Origin: a virus
Direction: 5' to 3' (one strand)
Length of the DNA stretch: 40,132 nucleotides
IMG/VR virus record: IMGVR_UViG_3300045997_000044
Coordinates: 1 to 40,132 of that record
Positions 2,885 to 32,362 of this stretch are shown here, one piece after another. Within the stretch, counting starts at the first letter, position 1; each line of letters starts with the position of its first letter. A program made the position numbers and the translations under genes. The notes beneath the pieces were generated by a model. It was not told the DNA's origin. It did no database searches and was given only the letters and a program-made list of their open reading frames with translations.

Positions 2885-3049
2885 ATGAATGAACAACTAC
2901 AGTTCGCGCAAGATTTGATCAACGCACTTACACAACAGCGCAACGACGCGTTTAACGCAATGGTGCAATTGCAGGCGCAAAATGCGGCGCTTTCCCGTAA
3001 GCTTGCGGAACTGCAAAACGTCGGCAAAACGGAAGAGACAGCCGAGTGA
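2885..3049 (+). CDS. Small coiled-coil protein of the lysis region
   Basis: A 54-aa protein starting at ATG 2885, nine bases after the tail fibre stop, and overlapping the GTG start of the endolysin by four bases (GTGA). It is rich in Gln, Asn, Ala and Leu with heptad-like spacing, predicting one amphipathic helix or coiled coil, and has no membrane segment or signal peptide. I do not recognise a family. The start-stop overlap suggests it is translated to couple the endolysin to the fibre message; it could also be a small tail or lysis accessory protein. An antisense frame of similar extent covers the same bases but lacks operon context. Confidence 0.6.
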   Translation: MNEQLQFAQDLINALTQQRNDAFNAMVQLQAQNAALSRKLAELQNVGKTEETAE

Positions 3050-4101
3050 ACTACGAGCAAAGCAAACGAGGCTATGCAAATCTCTGGGCGAAAACGACCA
3101 TTCGCCCAGAGAAACTTGCAACGGTGCGTGCCATCGCGAAGAAGTTGACTGCAAATAAGCCACGCTACGAGAAGGTTGCAAAGCAGATCGGTTGCCCTTG
3201 GTGGATGGTCGCATGCGTTCATCAGATGGAAAGCAATACCAATTGGGCGACGCACCTACACAATGGCGATCCGCTTACCCACCGCACCACACACGTTCCA
3301 GCCGGCCGCCCGCTTGGCAACCCACCTTTCACCTGGGAAGCCAGCGCGCTTGACGCCTTACGGCTGAAAGCCTGGGACAAGGTGGCTTCGTGGGAAATCC
3401 CGCGATGCCTCTATGAGTTGGAGCGCTACAACGGCTTTGGCTATGTGTCGAAAGGCATTAACTCCCCCTACCTATGGAGCTATACGACGCTCTATGCTAA
3501 GGGAAAGTATGTGGCCGATGGCCGCTATGACGCAAACGCGGTATCGTCTCAGTGCGGGGCAGCCGCCATCATGAAGGAATTGCTCGTGTCAAATCTTGCT
3601 GACCTACTTGCCCCGTTTGAGGCCATCGCACCGACGGTCCTTCGCATCGTTGCCGGCCCGGTGCCAGCCATCGCGATCAAGGCGCTTGCCGAAGCGTTCA
3701 AGATCCCGGAGACGACCGAGCCGGCCGTAGCCGAAAAGGTCAACGCTACACCGCTCTCGGGCATCGTCCAGGCCGTCCAGGCGGCCGAAGAGTTGTTGGG
3801 TCAGCTTGGCCAAGTCACAGGCCCAACCCCGCCTCCCGAGCCCGCTGCGCAGCCTTCCTCGTCGGGCCTCCCGGCCGGCTCTACTTCGGGCTCCCCGATT
3901 GACAAAATCGTCCCGGCTCTGACAGGGTGGAAGACGTACATCGGCATCGCGATCTATGGCGGCGCATGGGTAGCCGGCGCACTTGGTTACCTGACCCCGG
4001 AACTTGTCAGCGCTATCCAGGGTTTCGGTATGACGGTGGGTGGCGTTGGCCTCATTTCGAAGCTGGACCGCTGGCTGTCATTTTTCGGCAAGAAAGCCTA
4101 G
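3046..4101 (+). CDS. Endolysin (muramidase-like) with C-terminal membrane segments
   Basis: A 351-aa protein starting at GTG 3046, overlapping the previous stop. Residues ~1-185 resemble phage peptidoglycan hydrolases of the type carrying the block VHQMESNTNWATHLHNGDP (about residues 58-76); the Glu in this block is the likely catalytic acid, followed by THVPAGRP and a conserved aromatic stretch FTWEASALDAL. Residues ~225-285 are a Pro/Ala/Ser-rich linker. Residues ~290-345 hold two hydrophobic segments (starting near WKTYIGIAIYGG and VSAIQGFGM) and a charged tail. There is no N-terminal signal peptide. The protein probably degrades the cell wall at lysis; its C-terminus may tether it to the inner membrane or act like a holin. 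The enzymatic class is assigned by family resemblance only. Confidence 0.8.
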   Translation: MNYEQSKRGYANLWAKTTIRPEKLATVRAIAKKLTANKPRYEKVAKQIGCPWWMVACVHQMESNTNWATHLHNGDPLTHRTTHVPAGRPLGNPPFTWEASALDALRLKAWDKVASWEIPRCLYELERYNGFGYVSKGINSPYLWSYTTLYAKGKYVADGRYDANAVSSQCGAAAIMKELLVSNLADLLAPFEAIAPTVLRIVAGPVPAIAIKALAEAFKIPETTEPAVAEKVNATPLSGIVQAVQAAEELLGQLGQVTGPTPPPEPAAQPSSSGLPAGSTSGSPIDKIVPALTGWKTYIGIAIYGGAWVAGALGYLTPELVSAIQGFGMTVGGVGLISKLDRWLSFFGKKA

Positions 4102-4192: not shown

Positions 4193-4230
4193 CCCCTTAG
4201 TGTGACAAAAGCTCTAGTCACATTAAGGGG
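4193..4230 (+). promoter_or_regulatory. Stem-loop overlapping the ribosome binding site of the next gene
   Basis: CCCCTTAGTGTGAC (4193-4206) and GTCACATTAAGGGG (4217-4230) are 14-base inverted repeats with one mismatch and a 10-base loop. The 3' arm ends in AAGGGG, the Shine-Dalgarno sequence seven bases before ATG 4238. Folded, the RNA would hide this ribosome binding site. No T-run follows, so an intrinsic terminator is unlikely. Inference: a translational or timing switch for the lysis gene. Confidence 0.65.
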
Positions 4231-4237
4231 TAAGAGT

Positions 4238-4621
4238 ATGCGGGCTAAGGGTATGAATGGTTCCGGGCACATTGCGGACACCGTAAATTTCGAACACGAC
4301 ACGGGTCCAAACGTCATCAGTGTTAATGCGGGGTTGACAAAGCGCGATCTGGTCGCGGCGGGTGGAATGCTTTTCGCTGCGGTGTCGTCGCTCATAGCGG
4401 GCGGCTATCTGTTTTTGCCGGCCCGTCAAAGCGACATGTCGCAAGTGCAATCGACAGTCACGGAACTGCGGCGCGACGTTGGCGAGCTGAAAACAGCAAC
4501 GGGGCAGTTGACGACAGCGCTAGGCGAGCTGCACACGGCAATCAGCGCACTTGAAGTTTCGGTGGATCGAAGCCGCCGTGCATCAGCCGTGCGGCCCCGC
4601 GCCAAGGTCAGTTCGCGGTAG
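4238..4621 (+). CDS. Membrane-anchored coiled-coil protein, holin/spanin candidate
   Basis: A 127-aa protein with one transmembrane segment (about residues 37-58, AAGGMLFAAVSSLIAGGYLF) preceded by a short polar N-terminus and followed by a ~45-residue amphipathic helix (QSTVTELRRDVGELKTATG and on) with coiled-coil spacing, ending in a basic tail. The start at 4238 is chosen because AAGGGG lies seven bases upstream; a GTG at 4202 in the same frame has no such site and lies inside the hairpin. Its position after the endolysin suggests a holin or inner-membrane spanin, but there is no recognisable partner outer spanin. The 3' end overlaps the convergent gene at 4608-4910 by 14 bases. Confidence 0.65.
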   Translation: MRAKGMNGSGHIADTVNFEHDTGPNVISVNAGLTKRDLVAAGGMLFAAVSSLIAGGYLFLPARQSDMSQVQSTVTELRRDVGELKTATGQLTTALGELHTAISALEVSVDRSRRASAVRPRAKVSSR

Positions 4622-5975: not shown

Positions 5976-6236
5976 TTATTTCTGAGTGCGGGGGAGTTCC
6001 CACGTAACAGCGCAAGAGTCCACGATAGCGCCGCGATTAACGTTCACGAGAACGCCATCGGGGTAGGGTTCCACTTCGGAAAATATGCCGGTTGCAATCG
6101 CTTGCGCAAAGCGGCCGGTGTCTGCGATCCACGCAGCGTCAGCAATGATCAGATCGCTGCCCGTAACTTCCACGAGCTTGCCCGTGTAGATCATGGTAAC
6201 GGTGCGGATGAAGTAGTTCTTGCCAATTGTGTACAT
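5976..6236 (-). CDS. Conserved hypothetical phage protein
   Basis: An 86-aa protein starting at ATG 6236 with GAGG eight bases upstream. The block MIYTGKLVEVTGSDLIIADA and the segment IVNRGAIVD-like (VNVNRGAIVDSCAV) resemble a small family of phage proteins without known function that I recall from other phages; it looks beta-rich and acidic, without membrane segments. An internal ATG at residue 15 lacks a ribosome site. Its start overlaps the 3' end of the zinc-ribbon gene by 46 bases, consistent with coupled translation in the leftward operon. Confidence 0.65.
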   Translation of the reverse strand: MYTIGKNYFIRTVTMIYTGKLVEVTGSDLIIADAAWIADTGRFAQAIATGIFSEVEPYPDGVLVNVNRGAIVDSCAVTWELPRTQK

Positions 6237-10425: not shown

Positions 10426-10620
10426 TCAGAATACCCAAATCAGAATTGATGTCGCGATGACTAGCGACATGATAAGGACAGGCACCCACATACGCCACGG
10501 CGGGGCGGGACGGTAGGCGAATGGGCAATTGATATCATCGCCCGTGTCCCACTTTCTCCCGCAGACAATGCAGCGTGTTTTGTAGGTCTCGACAAAAAGA
10601 AGACACGGGCGCTCGTTCAT
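10426..10620 (-). CDS. Small zinc-binding membrane protein
   Basis: A 64-aa protein starting at ATG 10620, two bases after the preceding stop. The N-terminal half carries CIVC (residues ~17-20) and a further Cys in DDINC, suggesting a short zinc ribbon; the C-terminal ~22 residues (MWVPVLIMSLVIATSILIW) form one transmembrane helix. Topology is probably N-terminus in the cytoplasm. I recognise no family. In an early block such a protein could interfere with the host membrane or modulate superinfection, but this is speculation. Confidence 0.6.
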   Translation of the reverse strand: MNERPCLLFVETYKTRCIVCGRKWDTGDDINCPFAYRPAPPWRMWVPVLIMSLVIATSILIWVF

Positions 10621-13101: not shown

Positions 13102-13249
13102 CGCTGACCGTCTCCGTTATGATTTCGCGAACCACTTCTGACGCTTCGTTCATACAAGCGTCTGTGGTCTTGATGTCACCCGCTGCCGCAGATCGCAGAG
13201 CTTCCACGAGGTTGTCGGCTAACAGGTCTTGAAGCGTGTTATCGCCCAT
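13082..13249 (-). CDS. Small acidic hypothetical protein
   Basis: A 55-aa protein from ATG 13249 to TGA 13082. Its first part, NTLQDLLADNLVEALRSAAA, forms an amphipathic helix; the rest (TTDACMNEASEVVREIITETV) is a second helix. It is acidic, with no membrane segment. It overlaps the end of the upstream membrane-protein gene by 11 bases and the putative leader peptide downstream, in keeping with the packed leftward operon. I do not recognise a family. Confidence 0.5.
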   Translation of the reverse strand: MGDNTLQDLLADNLVEALRSAAAGDIKTTDACMNEASEVVREIITETVSDAKKPD

Positions 13250-13469
13250 CGTTTCTGCTTTCTAAAAACCCAATAACGCCCATGATGAAGACGCTTAGGC
13301 TAAGGTACACTCCAAAAGTTATCACCTGTTTTGCGCCGTACCCTGAATTACCCCCGTTAAGTGTGTGGAGAATAAGCGGGATTTTGGTCATGAGGTGGAT
13401 CGCGGAAACGGTCCAAATAGAAAGAAAGGCCGCTTTAGCGCAAATGCGTTTTTCTTTGTCGGTCATCAT
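13239..13469 (-). CDS. Small membrane protein with two transmembrane segments
   Basis: A 76-aa protein starting at ATG 13469 (ATGA overlap with the primase-helicase stop; AAGGA about nine bases upstream; a second ATG follows directly). Two hydrophobic segments lie at about residues 12-32 (AAFLSIWTVSAIHLMTKIPL) and 48-68 (VITFGVYLSLSVFIMGVIGF), joined by a polar Gly/Asn loop, with charged ends. The function is unknown; membrane proteins in early phage operons often inhibit host functions or exclude other phages, but nothing in the sequence proves this. Confidence 0.6.
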   Translation of the reverse strand: MMTDKEKRICAKAAFLSIWTVSAIHLMTKIPLILHTLNGGNSGYGAKQVITFGVYLSLSVFIMGVIGFLESRNDGR

Positions 13470-18085: not shown

Positions 18086-18439
18086 ATGGCTAAAATTAAT
18101 AGCTGCGCCAAGGGAAAGCACGGGGAACGCGAGTTCGCAGCGCTCTTACGCTCGTATGGGTTGCAGGCTCGAAGGGGTCAGCAATTCAGCGGCGTGAATG
18201 GGGATGCCGATGTGGTGCATTCGATACCCGGCGTTCACCTGGAGGTGAAGCGGGTTGAGAAGTTGAATGTTGTCGCGGCGTTCACTCAGGCCGCGCGGGA
18301 CGCTGGACCGAAAGGGGATATGCCGATAGTGTGTCATCGCAGGAACCGGGGCGAATGGCTCATGACCATGAAGGCCGATGACTTTCTCAAGCTGATACGA
18401 TTGTTGGATGAATTCGAAGCTGGTGGTACACTCGATTGA
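18086..18439 (+). CDS. Holliday-junction-resolvase-like PD-(D/E)XK nuclease
   Basis: A 117-aa protein. The N-terminal GKHGEREFAALLRSYG, then GDADVV (Asp) and LEVKR (Glu-x-Lys), followed by the AFTQAARDAG helix, reproduce the order of catalytic blocks in small Hjc/VRR-type nucleases. These resolve or trim branched DNA; in phages this helps maturation of replicated DNA before packaging. AAGGAG lies 12 bases before the ATG, which is longer than usual. It is the first gene of the rightward unit and overlaps the small terminase gene by 32 bases. Confidence 0.8.
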   Translation: MAKINSCAKGKHGEREFAALLRSYGLQARRGQQFSGVNGDADVVHSIPGVHLEVKRVEKLNVVAAFTQAARDAGPKGDMPIVCHRRNRGEWLMTMKADDFLKLIRLLDEFEAGGTLD

Positions 18440-18941
18440 CGAAGCCTACGCGCATCGTAGACGCGCCACGAAGGCGCACGAGTTCGATTGGGCCAAGGCT
18501 GGCGCGACACCGTTTGAGGTCGCGCAACACCTGTCCGCGGTAGCCACAGCCTCGCCCAGTGACCTTATGGAACCGGGTGCCGAGGGGGAGCCGCAAGCAC
18601 GCTCGTGGCTTGAAGTTGATCCGCTCAAGCTGTCGGCCTTGAAGGCTGTTGAGGTTGTCGAGAAGGTCATCGATGAGGACGAAGGCCGTAGGGTAATCGA
18701 GCGGCGCATCAAGTACACATGGCATGACAAGCTTAAAGCTATCCAGATGTATCGCGAAATCATCGGCATGGATGACATTATCGAATTCAAGAAAGGTAGT
18801 GTATCGGGTGAGGTCGCGCCGCGCTCGCGTGGAATTCATATAGGCATGGCGTCAAATGATCGTGCGTTCGCGTTGACAGATAAGCAATCGGACTTCATGC
18901 CGAAGACGAACGAGGACTGGGAAGCGGAGCTATTGAAGTGA
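18408..18941 (+). CDS. Terminase small subunit (probable)
   Basis: A 177-aa protein placed directly before the large terminase, with its stop overlapping the next start. The segment RRIKYTWHDKLKAIQMYREII (residues ~104-124) reads like the central helices of small terminases of T7-like and related phages; the C-terminus is acidic (TNEDWEAELLK), as expected for contact with the ATPase. A classical helix-turn-helix is not obvious. The start at 18408 lies within the nuclease gene and lacks a strong ribosome site, so a later start is possible. The role would be recognition of phage DNA for packaging. Confidence 0.65.
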   Translation: MNSKLVVHSIDEAYAHRRRATKAHEFDWAKAGATPFEVAQHLSAVATASPSDLMEPGAEGEPQARSWLEVDPLKLSALKAVEVVEKVIDEDEGRRVIERRIKYTWHDKLKAIQMYREIIGMDDIIEFKKGSVSGEVAPRSRGIHIGMASNDRAFALTDKQSDFMPKTNEDWEAELLK

Positions 18942-19669
18942 ATAAGGAATTGAGCGTTGATTTCAGCTATTCCGCGACGCTGCGCCGTTTCCTCGCATGC
19001 CAAGACCCATACGCGGTCGTGCTCGGGCCTGTCGGCAGCGGCAAGACCGTGGCGAACATCGTCAAGCCCTACATGTGGGCACTTGAGCAAGAGCCCGGAC
19101 CAGACAATATTCGGTACTTCAAAGCGGCTATCGTCCGCAACACGCTGCCGGAGCTGTGGCGCACCACGATTGAGACCTACACAAGTCTGTTCACGCAACA
19201 GCTTTTTGGTGATGTACGGCGCAGCTCGCCTGTTTCGCATAGCATTCACTGGGAAGCCGACGGGCTCAAGGGTGGACGCTTCGAGCAAGAGCCGACTGAG
19301 ACCGGCTTGGGCATGCGCTGGACGCCTAATGATGACAACTCGCCCGGCTTGGACTACCATGTTGACTTCTTCGCGTTGGATCGTCCACAACAGGTCAAGA
19401 GCCTGCTTTCTTATGAGGCTACATACATCTTCTTCAACGAGATACGTGAGATACCCAAGGCTATCGTAGACGCAGCCGGTGACCGCGTGGGGCGTTACCC
19501 GTCTATGACCAAGGGTGGCGTGATGCCTACCAAGTCAGGCGTCGCGGGTGACAGCAATCCGCCCGATGAGACGCATTGGCTCTATAAATTTCGCATGGAC
19601 CCGCCTAAAGGTTGGTCCATATTCGTGCAACCTCCTGCCCTTGTCGAAGTGGTGCCTTACCATGAGTGA
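18938..19669 (+). CDS. Terminase large subunit, ATPase part
   Basis: A 243-aa protein equal to the N-terminal motor domain of a large terminase: Walker A GPVGSGKT (30-37), Walker B-type TYIFFNEIREI (E168 as the likely catalytic carboxylate) and the conserved HWLYKFRMDPPKGWSIFVQPPAL near its end. It stops at TGA 19667-19669 where full-length relatives continue into the nuclease domain. The nuclease half follows in the same frame at 19742, so the intact gene would be about 593 codons, close to the usual T7-type length. Either the protein works as two chains, the TGA is read through, or the base is an error. Confidence 0.88.
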   Translation: MNKELSVDFSYSATLRRFLACQDPYAVVLGPVGSGKTVANIVKPYMWALEQEPGPDNIRYFKAAIVRNTLPELWRTTIETYTSLFTQQLFGDVRRSSPVSHSIHWEADGLKGGRFEQEPTETGLGMRWTPNDDNSPGLDYHVDFFALDRPQQVKSLLSYEATYIFFNEIREIPKAIVDAAGDRVGRYPSMTKGGVMPTKSGVAGDSNPPDETHWLYKFRMDPPKGWSIFVQPPALVEVVPYHE

Positions 19670-19745
19670 TCTCGCGTTCTTCCCTATCGCAGTTGTCAGC
19701 GCTGTCGCGGTTACGCTGCTCATTTGCTGGATATTCAAGCTGTGA
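19662..19745 (+). CDS. 27-aa membrane peptide between the terminase halves
   Basis: ATG 19662 opens a 27-codon frame, MSDLAFFPIAVVSAVAVTLL and seven more residues, dominated by one transmembrane helix with a C-terminal Lys. The start overlaps the ATPase stop by eight bases and its TGA overlaps a GTG (19742) that begins the nuclease half (GTGA). No Shine-Dalgarno sequence is visible, so expression would rely on coupling. The corresponding terminase-frame translation here is atypical (many Arg and Cys), which supports this frame being used. It may be a genuine inserted small gene or a chance frame. Confidence 0.4.
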   Translation: MSDLAFFPIAVVSAVAVTLLICWIFKL

Positions 19746-20719
19746 GACGCTTTAAAGCCGCGCCAAACGAACCGGATTGCGGGATTGTGCCCGAAGAATT
19801 TACGGTCGAATGGAACGGTAAGCGCTACGCTGTGAACCCGAACGCGGAGAACCTGCCTAACCTGCCCTATGATAGGCGCATGGATGTAGAGATGCGCATC
19901 CTTGGCCCTGGCAACTACTATCTTCGCCGCGTGCCTGGGAAGGATCGCGATTGGATCAACAGCTATTATCGCGCCCAGTTCGTTTATGTGCGCGAAGGTA
20001 AGCCGGTTATCCCAGAGTTCAACATCGAAACGATGGTCGTGGACGACTTGCCCGTGCTTGACGGCGTGCCGATTGGTGGCGGGTTCGACGTAGGCGGGGG
20101 GACGCTCATGCCGGCCGGCATCGTGGGGCAGCGTCACCCGCAGCGTGGCACCTATCTCATTCACGCGGAGCTGTCCGAAAGCTCTATGGGTATTAACGCA
20201 TTCGGCAAGGCGTTCCGCCGTATGCTCAATGAGGACTTTGCCACGGCCACCAATCAGCGCGGTAACCCGGTGCCGTTGCAGGAAGAAGCGTTCTATGGCG
20301 ATCCGGCCGGCCGGCAGCGTGACCAGATATTCGAGCAAGTTGTGTTCGACCATCTCAAAGGCTGCGGCATCATGGTCAAGAGCGCGCCGACGAATGACCC
20401 GCAATCGCGCATTGACGCCATCAAGGCACCGATGATGCGGCTGGACTTCGATAGGCCCGGCATTCTGATCAACAGGCGGCGCTGTCCGCTGCTGGTCAAA
20501 GGGCTAGCGGGCGAGTGGCGCTATCGGCGTATCCAGGCGGGAGGCACGGAGCGCTATAGCGAGAAGCCGGACAAGTCAGTCGCGAGCTCGCATGTCTGCG
20601 ATGCACTCGGCTATTACCTGTCAGGCAAGGGTGAGTTGCGGACCTTGCGCGGTCGTGATAAACGGGACGATCAACCGGAAATCCCACCAAACGACGACTA
20701 CCAATATTTCGGGGACTGA
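19742..20719 (+). CDS. Terminase large subunit, nuclease part
   Basis: A 325-aa protein holding the RNase H-like nuclease of a large terminase: GFDVGGG (D116), EAFYGDPAGRQRD (D187) and SSHVCDALGYYL (D287) supply the three metal-binding acids. The block NPNAENLPNLP near the N-terminus normally lies inside a continuous terminase, downstream of the ATPase. GTG 19742 is chosen because it overlaps the stop of the membrane peptide; a TTG at 19724 is an alternative. The frame matches that of the ATPase half. It cuts concatemeric DNA during packaging, working with the ATPase chain. Confidence 0.88.
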   Translation: MRRFKAAPNEPDCGIVPEEFTVEWNGKRYAVNPNAENLPNLPYDRRMDVEMRILGPGNYYLRRVPGKDRDWINSYYRAQFVYVREGKPVIPEFNIETMVVDDLPVLDGVPIGGGFDVGGGTLMPAGIVGQRHPQRGTYLIHAELSESSMGINAFGKAFRRMLNEDFATATNQRGNPVPLQEEAFYGDPAGRQRDQIFEQVVFDHLKGCGIMVKSAPTNDPQSRIDAIKAPMMRLDFDRPGILINRRRCPLLVKGLAGEWRYRRIQAGGTERYSEKPDKSVASSHVCDALGYYLSGKGELRTLRGRDKRDDQPEIPPNDDYQYFGD

Positions 20720-20725
20720 GCAGCC

Positions 20726-21001
20726 GTGACAGCCTGGACCGACAGCATAGACGCCCAGATCACGGCCCTTGATGCCCAAGTGACCGCGGAGACGGCCAAG
20801 CGCGCCGCGCTGGTGGTGCAACAGGGCTTTGCCGTCGGGCAAGCGCTTGACCAGCTCACGGACGCGATAGAGGCTCTGGACGCGATCTTGGCCGCGCGGG
20901 CGGAGTGGCGTGCTGTGTTGGAGGATGCGCGGTCATTGGGCTATTTGCCCGATCCTCGCTCGAAATTCTACAATGAGGATCTTGGAGGCTTTTTGCAATG
21001 A
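20726..21001 (+). CDS. Coiled-coil hypothetical protein
   Basis: A 91-aa protein starting at GTG 20726, six bases after the terminase stop. Residues ~5-65 have regular Ala/Leu/Ile heptads (SIDAQITALDAQVTAETAKR), predicting a long coiled coil; the C-terminus (LPDPRSKFYNEDLGGFLQ) is polar. I recognise no family. Its place between terminase and portal suggests a packaging or head assembly accessory. Its stop overlaps the next ATG as ATGA. Confidence 0.6.
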   Translation: MTAWTDSIDAQITALDAQVTAETAKRAALVVQQGFAVGQALDQLTDAIEALDAILAARAEWRAVLEDARSLGYLPDPRSKFYNEDLGGFLQ

Positions 21002-28861: not shown

Positions 28862-31453
28862 ATGGCCGACATTGACCTTTGGCAAGCTGCGTTCAACGGC
28901 GGGGAACTGACCCCGCTTGTGGAAGGTCGGGAGGATATCTCCCGATACCCAACCGGCTGTCGTCGGCTGCGCAATGCCCATGGAATGATCCAGGGGCCGG
29001 CGCGGCGTCGCACGGGCGGCCGGTATGTCGCGGCTGTCAAGTCCAACGGTCAAGCCTGGCTCGTGCCTTTTATCCGCTCGCGCCAACTCGCCTATGTGCT
29101 TGAATATGGCGAAGAGTATATGCGGTTCTACCGCAATCGCGGGCAGGTCCTCAACAGCGCTAGCCCTTTCGCGCCTTACGAAATCGTCACGCCCTGGACC
29201 TATGCCGAGCTGACCGCACCAGATGGCACGATGGCCGTGCACTTCACGCAGTCTATTGACGTGCTCTACAACGCAGATGGCACACAGCCCGTGCAACAGC
29301 TCATTCGCACGGCTGATGACAACTGGGCGCTGTCGGCTTTCGAGACCGTTGGCGGGCCTTTCGAGGGTCCGAACACGGGCACGACCACGATATACGCCAG
29401 CGCCCAAACGGGCACGGTGACATTGACGGCATCCACGGCGATTTTCACGTCTGATCGCATCGGGTCGCTGTTGCGGTTGCAGCCGCAAGACCTATCGGAC
29501 GTAGCGCCTTGGGAGGCCCGCCAGCACCTTGCGACGAACGACCTACGGCGCAATGCAGGCAAGACATACAAAGCCACCACGGCCGGCGTAACGGACGCTG
29601 CGGGGCAAAGGATCACGGGCACCTTTGCGCCGATCCATGAGGAAGGCACCGAGAAAGACGGGGACGGGGACGCGCAAGACCCGAAGAACCTGTCAGGTAC
29701 TGTTGGCGCGGGTATCGATTTTGAGTTTCAGGACCCTGGCTACGGCATCGTTAAGATAACGGCCGTAGCTTCGGGCGGGTTGACGGCTACGGCCACGGTG
29801 GAAAAGTGGCGTGTCGGCTCCAACGCGCAACTGCCGCTCTATGTGACGACTTCGAGCAACCCGACAACGCGTTGGGCATGGGGTTTGTTCTCGGCAGCTA
29901 ACGGGTATGCAACCGACGTGTCATTCTTCCGTGAACGCTTTGTCATGGCGAATGATAGGCAATATGCCTTTTCGGTGCCCGCTGCGTTTACCGAGTTCGC
30001 ACAAGAGACGGCGGGCTCCGTGCTCGCGGACAATGCGTTCGTGGTTGACCTGACATCGGATCGCGACGAGACAACACAATGGATCAAGCCCGCGCATGAT
30101 AAGATGCTGATCGGCACAACAGGCGGGGAGCACATGTTGGGGGAGATGACAACCCAACAAGTCTTCGGCCCGTTGAACCGGAAAAGCGAACCGAAGACGG
30201 GGTATGGCTCCAACGGCGTCGCGCCAGTTCGCGCGGGTGAACAGTTGTTATTCGTAGAGGCTAATAATCTGCGGGTTCGGGCAACGGAAAGCGATGGAGA
30301 CCGCTTAACAGCAGGAAGTCAGAACGATCTCGCGGAACACATCACTTTTGGAGGCATCGTTGCCCAGGCATTTCAAGAGAAACCCGACAACTATGTCTGG
30401 TATGTTACGGCGGAAGGCGCATTGCCTTGCCTTACATACTCAAAAGAACAGGATGTCTTTGGTTGGTCTGGCCATTTTATTGGGGGCTATCGAGACGCGG
30501 CGCGCATGCGAGCAGCAAAGGTCACATCCGCAGCCGCTATACCAAGCCCGGATGGCACCGTTGACGATTTATGGTACATCGCAGAAAGGTACATCAACGG
30601 TTCATTGAAGCGGTATATTGAGTACATCACGCCAGCCGCGCCGAAGCCGCAGCGCTGGGAGAATGAGCCAGAAGAGGCGTTTAAACGCCGCATTCTCGAT
30701 TGGCAAGCCGATCTCGTTTACCTCGACAGCGCGGCCACCTATGACAACCCGCTGACGATCACGGCGATTACCAAGGTCGGCACCGTGCTGCGGGTGACCA
30801 GCGCTTCACACGGCCTATCGAATGGCGATTATGTGCGGCTCGATGCCGTGGTAGGCATGTGGGAAGTGAACGCGCGCGGTTTCCAGATTGCGAACGTCAC
30901 CACAAACACCTTCGATCTGGATGACGTGGACGGGACGGATTACACCGCATACGCCAGCGGGGGCGTCGCGCGCGAGATGGTGACCACGATCAGCAATCTA
31001 GGCCCATGGGAAGGCGAGACGCTCCAGGTGGTGACCGACGGGGTAACGCACCCAGACCGCACTGTGAGCGGTGGCGCGATCACGCTGCAGTACCGCGCCG
31101 CGCGGGTGCACACTGGCTACAACGCGCGCATGACGGTTGAGACAATGCGGCCGATTGGCGGTAACCCCAGCGGTAGCGCCCAAGGCAAGCACGGGTCCAT
31201 AGACCGGATTATCTTGCGGGTTGAAGGCACCTTGGGCGGTAAGTTCGGGCCTAATGATGACAGCCTCGACACGGTCAACTATCGCGTGCCGCAAGACCCC
31301 ATGGGCATCGCGGTCCCTGTCTACACGGGTGACCTGGAGCTTGATTTTCCGGGTGACGTAGACACGGTGCGCACCGTGGTCGTTGTTCAGGACCAGCCCT
31401 TGCCCATGACCGTGGTCGGCATCGGGTCTTCTATGTCAGTTGAAAACTCGTGA
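28862..31453 (+). CDS. Tail tubular protein B (nozzle, gp12-like)
   Basis: An 863-aa protein of the T7 gp12 nozzle family: the N-terminal INLWQAAFNGGELTP-like start (DIDLWQAAFNGGELTPLVEGR), RCRRLRNAHGMIQGPARRRTG, then FYRNRGQVL and FFRERFVMANDRQYAFS, and NLRVRATESDGDRLT in the central propeller. A later insertion (about residues 630-700) with GDYVRLDAVVGMWEVNARGF is a beta domain seen in other phage tail proteins. It builds the lower tail and binds fibres. A GTTTAAAC site lies inside at 30679. Confidence 0.92.
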   Translation: MADIDLWQAAFNGGELTPLVEGREDISRYPTGCRRLRNAHGMIQGPARRRTGGRYVAAVKSNGQAWLVPFIRSRQLAYVLEYGEEYMRFYRNRGQVLNSASPFAPYEIVTPWTYAELTAPDGTMAVHFTQSIDVLYNADGTQPVQQLIRTADDNWALSAFETVGGPFEGPNTGTTTIYASAQTGTVTLTASTAIFTSDRIGSLLRLQPQDLSDVAPWEARQHLATNDLRRNAGKTYKATTAGVTDAAGQRITGTFAPIHEEGTEKDGDGDAQDPKNLSGTVGAGIDFEFQDPGYGIVKITAVASGGLTATATVEKWRVGSNAQLPLYVTTSSNPTTRWAWGLFSAANGYATDVSFFRERFVMANDRQYAFSVPAAFTEFAQETAGSVLADNAFVVDLTSDRDETTQWIKPAHDKMLIGTTGGEHMLGEMTTQQVFGPLNRKSEPKTGYGSNGVAPVRAGEQLLFVEANNLRVRATESDGDRLTAGSQNDLAEHITFGGIVAQAFQEKPDNYVWYVTAEGALPCLTYSKEQDVFGWSGHFIGGYRDAARMRAAKVTSAAAIPSPDGTVDDLWYIAERYINGSLKRYIEYITPAAPKPQRWENEPEEAFKRRILDWQADLVYLDSAATYDNPLTITAITKVGTVLRVTSASHGLSNGDYVRLDAVVGMWEVNARGFQIANVTTNTFDLDDVDGTDYTAYASGGVAREMVTTISNLGPWEGETLQVVTDGVTHPDRTVSGGAITLQYRAARVHTGYNARMTVETMRPIGGNPSGSAQGKHGSIDRIILRVEGTLGGKFGPNDDSLDTVNYRVPQDPMGIAVPVYTGDLELDFPGDVDTVRTVVVVQDQPLPMTVVGIGSSMSVENS
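30679..30686. repeat. GTTTAAAC palindrome, site 7
   Basis: Exact palindrome within the nozzle gene, in the codon context GCG TTT AAA CGC. Confidence 0.8.
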
Positions 31454-31971
31454 TTGTCGCCTACGAGCCGGCGCATGCTTTGATCCTGGCCGGCAAGCTC
31501 CAGGACGGGCAATTCGATGCGGAAGTAGACGAGGCGGTTGCCCAACTCTTCGGGCGTGGGGTATGCGCCTGGACCTGCCTAAATGGGGCTGGTGAGCCGG
31601 TTGCCGCAGCGGGCATCATGTCAATTTGGCATAATCGGGCGCTTGCGTGGGCCTTAATCGGTCGCGACGCGGGTCCACACATGCGCGAGGTCACCTTGGC
31701 CACGCTTGAGGCCCTAGACGCATGCCCGCGCACTCGTGTAGAGATGTATGTGCGGCCGGGCTTCCATGAGGCGTTTCGCTGGGCGAAGGTTCTCGGCTTC
31801 GAATTTGAGGCGATCCTTGAAGGCGCGGACCCGCTGGGCGGGGATATGGCGATTTTCAAGCGCATAAAGGGGAAGTCAAATGGCCTTCGTGCCTATCGCA
31901 ATGGCCGCATTCCAGGCAGCCGGAGCCGTAGTTGGCGGATTGTCGGACCTGCAAGAGTCCCGCGGGCGTGA
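31450..31971 (+). CDS. gp13-like internal virion/acyltransferase-fold protein
   Basis: A 173-aa protein from GTG 31450 (GTGA overlap with the nozzle stop). Residues ~1-138 resemble the T7 gp13-type/GNAT-like family: AWTCLNGAGEPVAAAGI, then ALAWALIGRDAG and TRVEMYVRPGFHEAFRWAKV followed by LGFEFEA. The tail from residue ~140 (GKSNGLRAYRNGRIPGSRSR) is Arg-rich and overlaps the start of the next gene by 92 bases, unusual in this compact genome; it looks like a read-through extension after loss of an earlier stop. Likely needed for internal core assembly. Confidence 0.7.
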   Translation: MIVAYEPAHALILAGKLQDGQFDAEVDEAVAQLFGRGVCAWTCLNGAGEPVAAAGIMSIWHNRALAWALIGRDAGPHMREVTLATLEALDACPRTRVEMYVRPGFHEAFRWAKVLGFEFEAILEGADPLGGDMAIFKRIKGKSNGLRAYRNGRIPGSRSRSWRIVGPARVPRA

Positions 31972-32362
31972 AAGCGTCGCGCGCCAGAACGCGAATTATG
32001 CAGCAATCAACAGCGTCCAGGAATTGCGCACGGCATCGCGGGAAGAAGCGCGCGTACGGCGCGAAGGGGATAAGCAGTTTGCCGAGCAATTCGCAGCGTT
32101 CGCGCAATCAGGCGGGGGCGTAACAGATTTCAGCACGACCAAAGCCCTTGAGGAAAGCGCCACGCTTGCCGAGTTGGATGCTTTGAATGTGCGGTATAAG
32201 GGGCAACTCGCCTCCCGTGATCAGGATATCGCTTACTCACAATACGACTATGAGGCGCGAGCGGAGAAGGCAAGCCGTCCGCTGATTGGCGTCAAGACGG
32301 CGCTTGGCGTGGGAACAGCCGCACTGTCCGGGTATAAAAAGACTATCGGTCAAAAGATATAG
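31880..32362 (+). CDS. Internal virion protein (gp14-like)
   Basis: A 160-aa protein with AAGGGGAAG upstream of ATG 31880. The N-terminus (AMAAFQAAGAVVGGLSDLQE) is a hydrophobic/Gly-rich helix, followed by a long charged coiled coil (SREEARVRREGDKQFAEQFA) and the Gly/Ser-rich segment FAQSGGGV. This arrangement and its place before the transglycosylase match T7 gp14-type internal core proteins, which insert into the outer membrane on infection. Assignment is by synteny and composition. Confidence 0.75.
   Translation: MAFVPIAMAAFQAAGAVVGGLSDLQESRGRESVARQNANYAAINSVQELRTASREEARVRREGDKQFAEQFAAFAQSGGGVTDFSTTKALEESATLAELDALNVRYKGQLASRDQDIAYSQYDYEARAEKASRPLIGVKTALGVGTAALSGYKKTIGQKI

Follow-up and report, generated by a model that had tools for sequence, protein, structure and literature searches.

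Organization of the terL locus

In the genome of an uncultured, podovirus-like metagenomic virus of bacteria (record IMGVR_UViG_3300045997_000044; its 40,132 bases, analysed at full length, are referred to as the window) the coding sequence of the large terminase subunit TerL is interrupted by a very small ORF, and all genes of the locus are encoded on the plus strand. The first part of terL (18938-19669), which matches the terminase family PHROG 2, starts with GTG at position 18938, comprises 243 codons and ends with the stop codon TGA 19667-19669. The encoded chain 1 of 243 amino acids represents the ASCE ATPase core. Behind this stop codon the terL frame stays open until TGA 20717-20719, which amounts to 594 codons overall, and within it a second ORF (19742-20719) encodes chain 2 with 325 amino acids, to which the ATPase lid and an RNase-H-like nuclease were assigned by structure alignment. 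Chain 2 is taken to start with GTG 19742; TTG 19724 and ATG 19880 are alternative starts. Between both parts lies the mini-ORF (19662-19745) with ATG 19662 as start, 27 codons and TGA 19743-19745 as stop, encoding a single-span membrane peptide of 27 amino acids, MSDLAFFPIAVVSAVAVTLLICWIFKL.

The start of the mini-ORF overlaps with the stop of chain 1 by eight bases (ATGAGTGA, 19662-19669), and its own stop shares the four bases GTGA (19742-19745) with the start of chain 2. The initial annotation of this DNA had already reported the tiny membrane ORF with both overlaps, and the sequence agrees. The ORF upstream of chain 1 (18408-18941) is a candidate for TerS, the small terminase, on the basis of its position and of a weak match to Pfam Terminase_2 that does not reach the curated cut-off, and it is joined to chain 1 at 18938 by a same-strand 4-base GTGA overlap. 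Stop-start overlaps are found at all three joins (TerS/chain 1, chain 1/peptide, peptide/chain 2) and, further on in the window, at 20998, 31450 (GTGA) and 34927 (TTGA). Shine-Dalgarno sequences are not clear at 19662 and 19742 (-3.7 and -3.1 kcal/mol compared with a random mean of -2.9), and other overlapped genes of the window are likewise without a clear one. Since both internal starts overlap with stop codons, as at other junctions of this genome, coupled re-initiation is the natural reading.

The catalytic elements of a terminase are distributed over both chains. Chain 1 contains the Walker A motif GPVGSGKT (residues 30-37) and the Walker B/catalytic motif FNE with E168, which are conserved in the alignment; the acidic nuclease residues D384 and D455 of chain 2 are conserved as well, and D555 is aligned with the third acidic position. 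The locus hence encodes an ASCE ATPase with Walker A, Walker B and catalytic Glu as well as an RNase-H-like nuclease, as expected of a TerL. Core, lid and nuclease would reside in one polypeptide only in the case of read-through, which the codon data given below disfavour.

At the right end of the window a phrog_684 gene covering family positions 66-659 runs off, and the ORF at the left end covers positions 667-830 (window 40131 to 1). As both ends meet within one phrog_684 gene, the record represents a permuted, nearly complete genome. It encodes a portal, capsid, tail and internal virion proteins, a family A DNA polymerase and a VapE-type primase/helicase; no tRNA was found in the 40,132 bases, and the genes other than terL are intact. 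No relatives at the DNA level were found among annotated phages. Two probable internal virion protein genes (31450-31971 and 31880-32362) share 92 bases, which they read in different frames. Downstream of a 351-aa ORF (3046-4101, plus strand), endolysin-like by eye, lies an ORF of 139 aa (4202-4621, plus strand) whose product has a single membrane span and probably a coil; neither has a convincing PHROG or Pfam match, and together they may form a lysis cassette. Two small ORFs of the replication module on the minus strand are strongly hydrophobic, one in its C-terminal span (10426-10620, 64 aa) and one in several stretches (13239-13469, 76 aa).

The insertion and the encoded membrane peptide

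For the comparison 98 other records of the TerL family were compiled, consisting of 14 annotated phages, IMG/VR contigs and three prophage-bearing genomes. The closest visible relative, IMGVR_UViG_3300038551_000109 (L003), encodes a single TerL of 570 residues, with which chain 1 has 76% and chain 2 has 66% amino acid identity. The DNA alignment with L003 contains one clean gap of 78 nt and both flanks are alignable to the residue; chain 2 is conserved up to its GTG, as FKAAPNEPDCGIVP... matches L003 beginning two codons past the start. TerL is uninterrupted in L003 and in L030, the two nearest relatives, and the segment from QPP..EV to NP.AEN comprises 35 residues in both of them and 61 (35 + 26) in the window. 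DNA and protein alignments place the in-frame insertion at 19667-19744, with borders accurate to a base or two. In the initial annotation, alignment to the closest full-length terminases was proposed as a check for an insertion of about 50 residues; an insertion is indeed present, but it amounts to 26 codons (78 nt).

In 96 of the 98 records the coding sequence runs uninterrupted from the ATPase core to the nuclease (for Mx8 by the deposited annotation), and none of the 98 contains the 78-nt insertion. Only three prophage relatives were found, all of them distant, and a scan for exact matches detected no near-identical genome among the visible records. With uninterrupted relatives and an additional segment in this genome, the locus in this respect resembles a gene in pieces, and the alignments identify the insertion in terL as derived and confined to this lineage. 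Among the intact relatives the length of the QPP..EV to NP.AEN segment ranges from 0 to 54 residues; this natural variability indicates that insertions are evidently tolerated there.

Two records with irregular terL genes were noticed in the course of the comparison. In L024, a distantly related phage, a single-base C-to-A change creates a TAA (5989-5991; position 4631 of L040, the same contig) in the same core-lid segment. Four otherwise identical contigs do not have this change, which stems either from an error in sequencing or from natural nonsense variation. In L016 (Vibrio phage PVA7) TerL and the portal are broken into many short ORFs; as a split TerL this phage was dismissed, being interrupted many times, probably because of poor sequence quality.

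The insert itself has the properties of a gene. Among 47,372 stop-free six-frame windows of the 40,132-base sequence, the most hydrophobic 19-mer lies within the mini-ORF peptide (Kyte-Doolittle value of 2.60 over 19 residues), which has the single hydrophobic span typical of holins. Codon statistics were trained on the clear genes of the window and applied to test windows of 26 codons. In the peptide frame the codon use of the insert corresponds to the 26th percentile of real windows and exceeds 98.9% of shifted-frame windows. In the TerL frame it falls to the 1st percentile, below 99% of real in-frame windows, so that the previous impression of an atypical translation in this frame is well founded. 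In a chance test 200,000 random 78-mers of the same genome were placed at the insertion site. Half of them gave a stop at the site, 1,432 gave a coupled ORF with restart, and 18 combined stop, coupled ORF, restart and a membrane segment; a single one was as hydrophobic as the real peptide within the coupled arrangement. Such an arrangement thus has a chance probability of about 1e-4 or less. Based on codon use, hydrophobicity and random placement, the insert looks like a gene rather than a terminase linker or noise, and a hydrophobic peptide with coding-like codons in its own frame and not in the TerL frame argues against read-through, sequencing error and chance alike.

Programmed read-through of TGA 19667, proposed at first inspection, would result in one TerL of 593 residues with an additional loop of 26 residues. 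The open frame across the insert is in line with this, and a loop at the site appears structurally tolerable in the model described below. Read-through is nevertheless very unlikely, as the insert is non-coding in the TerL frame (1st percentile) and coding-like in that of the peptide, the RNA structure at the site is unremarkable (z 0.03) and TGA is a common gene end in this genome. An alternative code with TGA as a sense codon was set aside, since many genes of the window terminate with a TGA that overlaps with the next start.

A stop codon created by a sequencing or assembly error in an actually continuous gene, likewise raised at that stage, would be conceivable in a metagenomic record, and yet it seems highly improbable. 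A base-calling error cannot yield an in-frame 78-nt insertion with a membrane ORF, and if just a base of the stop were miscalled, the insert would still be there, with a sequence that is atypical in the TerL frame. Two compensating frameshifts, by which TerL would gain a membrane helix in its interior, were discarded by reasoning, because two errors would be needed for an implausible protein.

Least of all do we expect a ribosomal bypass of the insert in the manner of T4 gene 60, leading to one near-normal TerL. As in gene 60, the coding sequence is interrupted, and the stop codon at the start of the insert immediately follows a sense codon; the insert length is a multiple of three. However, a matching landing codon at a suitable distance and a take-off hairpin, both characteristic of gene 60, are missing: GAG precedes the stop, and downstream the frame has no Glu codon until GAA 19769, so that landing there would skip 102 nt and lose the conserved FKAAPN. 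The processivity of bypassing drops past 56 nt (PMC11194080), and there is no signal of a take-off hairpin.

The origin of the insert was searched for in several ways. No convincing homologues of the peptide were found by tblastn, by a degenerate DNA pattern over IMG/VR or in all fetched loci. The insertion site has no Rfam match up to E=1, no excess RNA structure (z 0.03) and no flanking repeats beyond chance; neither a target-site duplication nor a source copy was detected. A group I or II intron or another RNA element was rejected due to the missing Rfam match, the lack of excess structure and the length of only 78 nt, and a homing endonuclease because the insert encodes nothing but the 27-aa membrane peptide. 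In the relatives Pmp11 and Y3 lysis genes adjoin terS/terL, and by analogy the peptide might be a small holin-like, lysis-timing or membrane accessory peptide.

Position of the cut in the terminase fold

In the terminase of D6E an ASCE core is followed by the lid, a 12-residue linker and the nuclease (PMC5727402). In order to locate the cut, an AlphaFold2 model of the read-through translation was compared with solved structures. A sequence-based profile search of solved structures gave no match; the fold comparison did. The model is well defined on both sides of the insert, and residues 247-267, which correspond to the insert, form the only internal stretch with a pLDDT below 50. Crystal structures of isolated ATPase domains align across the cut: that of P74-26 covers residues 3-350 of the model (Z 17.8, rmsd 3.5, 219 aligned) and that of T4 residues 5-349 (Z 14.7, rmsd 4.0, 206 aligned). 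The nuclease domains of P22, SPP1, RB49 and G20c start at 351/355 and end at 565/570, with Z 18.3, an rmsd of 2.7 and 177 aligned residues for P22. On this basis the predicted lid subdomain extends over read-through residues of about 269-350 (19742-19987) and includes the invariant (A)EN motif with E304 and N305, and the nuclease domain extends over residues of about 351-570 (19988-20647).

The intact TerL of L003 was modelled as well (mean pLDDT 84) and gave the same picture, with the ATPase domain reaching to residue 327 and the nuclease beginning at 328-331. The ASCE domain of phi29 aligns with residues 11-239 (Z 12.6, rmsd 3.7, 170 aligned) and has no counterpart of the lid in this alignment. 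On the L003 protein the insertion falls between residues 245 and 246, which together separate the strands 237-244 and 247-250; judging by their spacing, these strands may pair as a hairpin. According to the models, the cut lies in a predicted tight turn of two residues leading from the ASCE core to the lid; the hinge between ATPase and nuclease follows about 85 residues later.

Since crystal structures of separate ATPase domains match the model past the cut, up to residue 350 or so, the cut lies inside the ATPase domain and not, as had been assumed initially, between ATPase and nuclease. The split at TGA 19667 and the resumption of the same frame were described correctly, but chain 1 does not contain the whole ATPase domain and the lid is carried by chain 2.

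A putative two-chain packaging motor

Selective constraint on both TerL parts was estimated relative to L030. For chain 2 pN is 0.292 compared with 0.289 for the intact L003 protein, and for chain 1 the respective values are 0.278 and 0.322. In both parts pN is well below pS, although a very recent split would look alike. With synonymous sites near saturation, this constraint makes it unlikely that function was lost long ago and is compatible with a recent loss; it supports the view that both parts may still be in use. A split but functional terminase with a small gene inserted, one of the options named in the initial annotation, is the best supported one in view of relatives without the insert, a coding-like mini-ORF frame and a chain 2 which evolves no faster than its intact relative, albeit with the domain boundary at a different place.

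We consider it probable that the locus is a coupled three-cistron operon in which terL is split by a membrane mini-gene and the two TerL chains reassemble. In this lineage terL of a podovirus-like phage acquired a 78-nt segment, and with it the 27-codon gene of the membrane peptide. Ribosomes finishing the ASCE core at TGA 19667 would restart at the overlapping ATG 19662 to produce the peptide, and those finishing the peptide would restart at the overlapping GTG 19742 to produce the lid and nuclease chain. Chains 1 and 2 would then associate in the normal TerL fold to form a two-chain packaging motor. As the insertion lies in a predicted two-residue turn joining core and lid, the chains should still be capable of associating with each other. 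ATP hydrolysis shifts the lid relative to the core in other terminases (PMC5727402; PMC7617512); with the nucleotide site on chain 1 and the lid on chain 2, the motor would depend on this association. That a natural two-chain motor with an embedded, translated peptide ties a membrane event, e.g., the timing of lysis, to motor synthesis is a more tentative idea, which we regard as possible but not as the likelier case.

Against a functional split it can be argued that neither internal start has a clear Shine-Dalgarno sequence, that no recognisable relatives of the peptide were found, that the insertion occurs in one genome only and that a recent insertion would not yet have decayed. The insertion may be real and the assembled variant nevertheless defective, minor or chimeric, i.e., with a broken TerL dependent on intact siblings or with joined variants. 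The single carrier genome, the lack of a near-identical record among those visible and the TAA of L024, by which such contigs are seen to carry isolated nonsense changes, are in favor of this. However, the insert is exactly in frame between flanks alignable to the residue, its coding-like ORF overlaps with its neighbors at start and stop, the remaining genes are intact, and a lethal allele would not be expected as the consensus of an assembled virus population. We therefore regard such a variant as unlikely.

The single-chain TerLs of D6E, Sf6 (gp2), P74-26, HK97 and T4 (gp17) share fold, domain order and conserved residues with the protein described here (PMC5727402). In all of them TerL is one polypeptide, whereas the window encodes the core and the lid with nuclease on two ORFs. 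Split enzymes are known from other phages, namely nrdA of Aeh1 (mobE), the topoisomerase genes of T4 (mobA) and gene 43A/43B of 44RR, and the split NrdA of Aeh1 is fully functional (PMC2988022). There, too, an inserted element separates an essential phage enzyme into two chains; the element consists of a homing endonuclease gene or of an untranslated spacer, whereas in the window it is an 84-nt membrane-peptide gene without endonuclease, intron or repeats, and the enzyme is a terminase instead of a ribonucleotide reductase, a topoisomerase or a polymerase. The halves of the MEP401/MEP402 DNA polymerase are separated by a small ORF of unknown family (PMC10580990). This resembles the window in that a small ORF lies between the halves of an essential phage enzyme; the enzyme is a different one, and the passages considered describe neither a membrane peptide nor overlaps. 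In the cyanophage Mic1 an inserted element interrupts TerL as well (PMC7156551). It is an intein, which is translated in frame and spliced out, in contrast to the stop codon and 26 codons of the insert in the window.

When the ATPase and nuclease domains of T4 gp17 are separated at the hinge, their activities are kept and translocation is completely lost (PMC9958956). A split TerL need not work, and a natural one is surprising in this light; the cut in the window, however, is located at a different joint, between core and lid. We found no report of a two-gene or split TerL in the open-access literature, to which the search was directed.

In packaging models the ATP-hydrolysing core is assumed to move a lid and a nuclease that belong to its own chain. 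If the proposed organization holds true, covalent continuity between core and lid would not be needed in a packaging motor, and an essential motor would be divided by a minimal membrane-peptide gene instead of a homing endonuclease. The phage would then offer a ready-made two-part motor for tests of force transmission.
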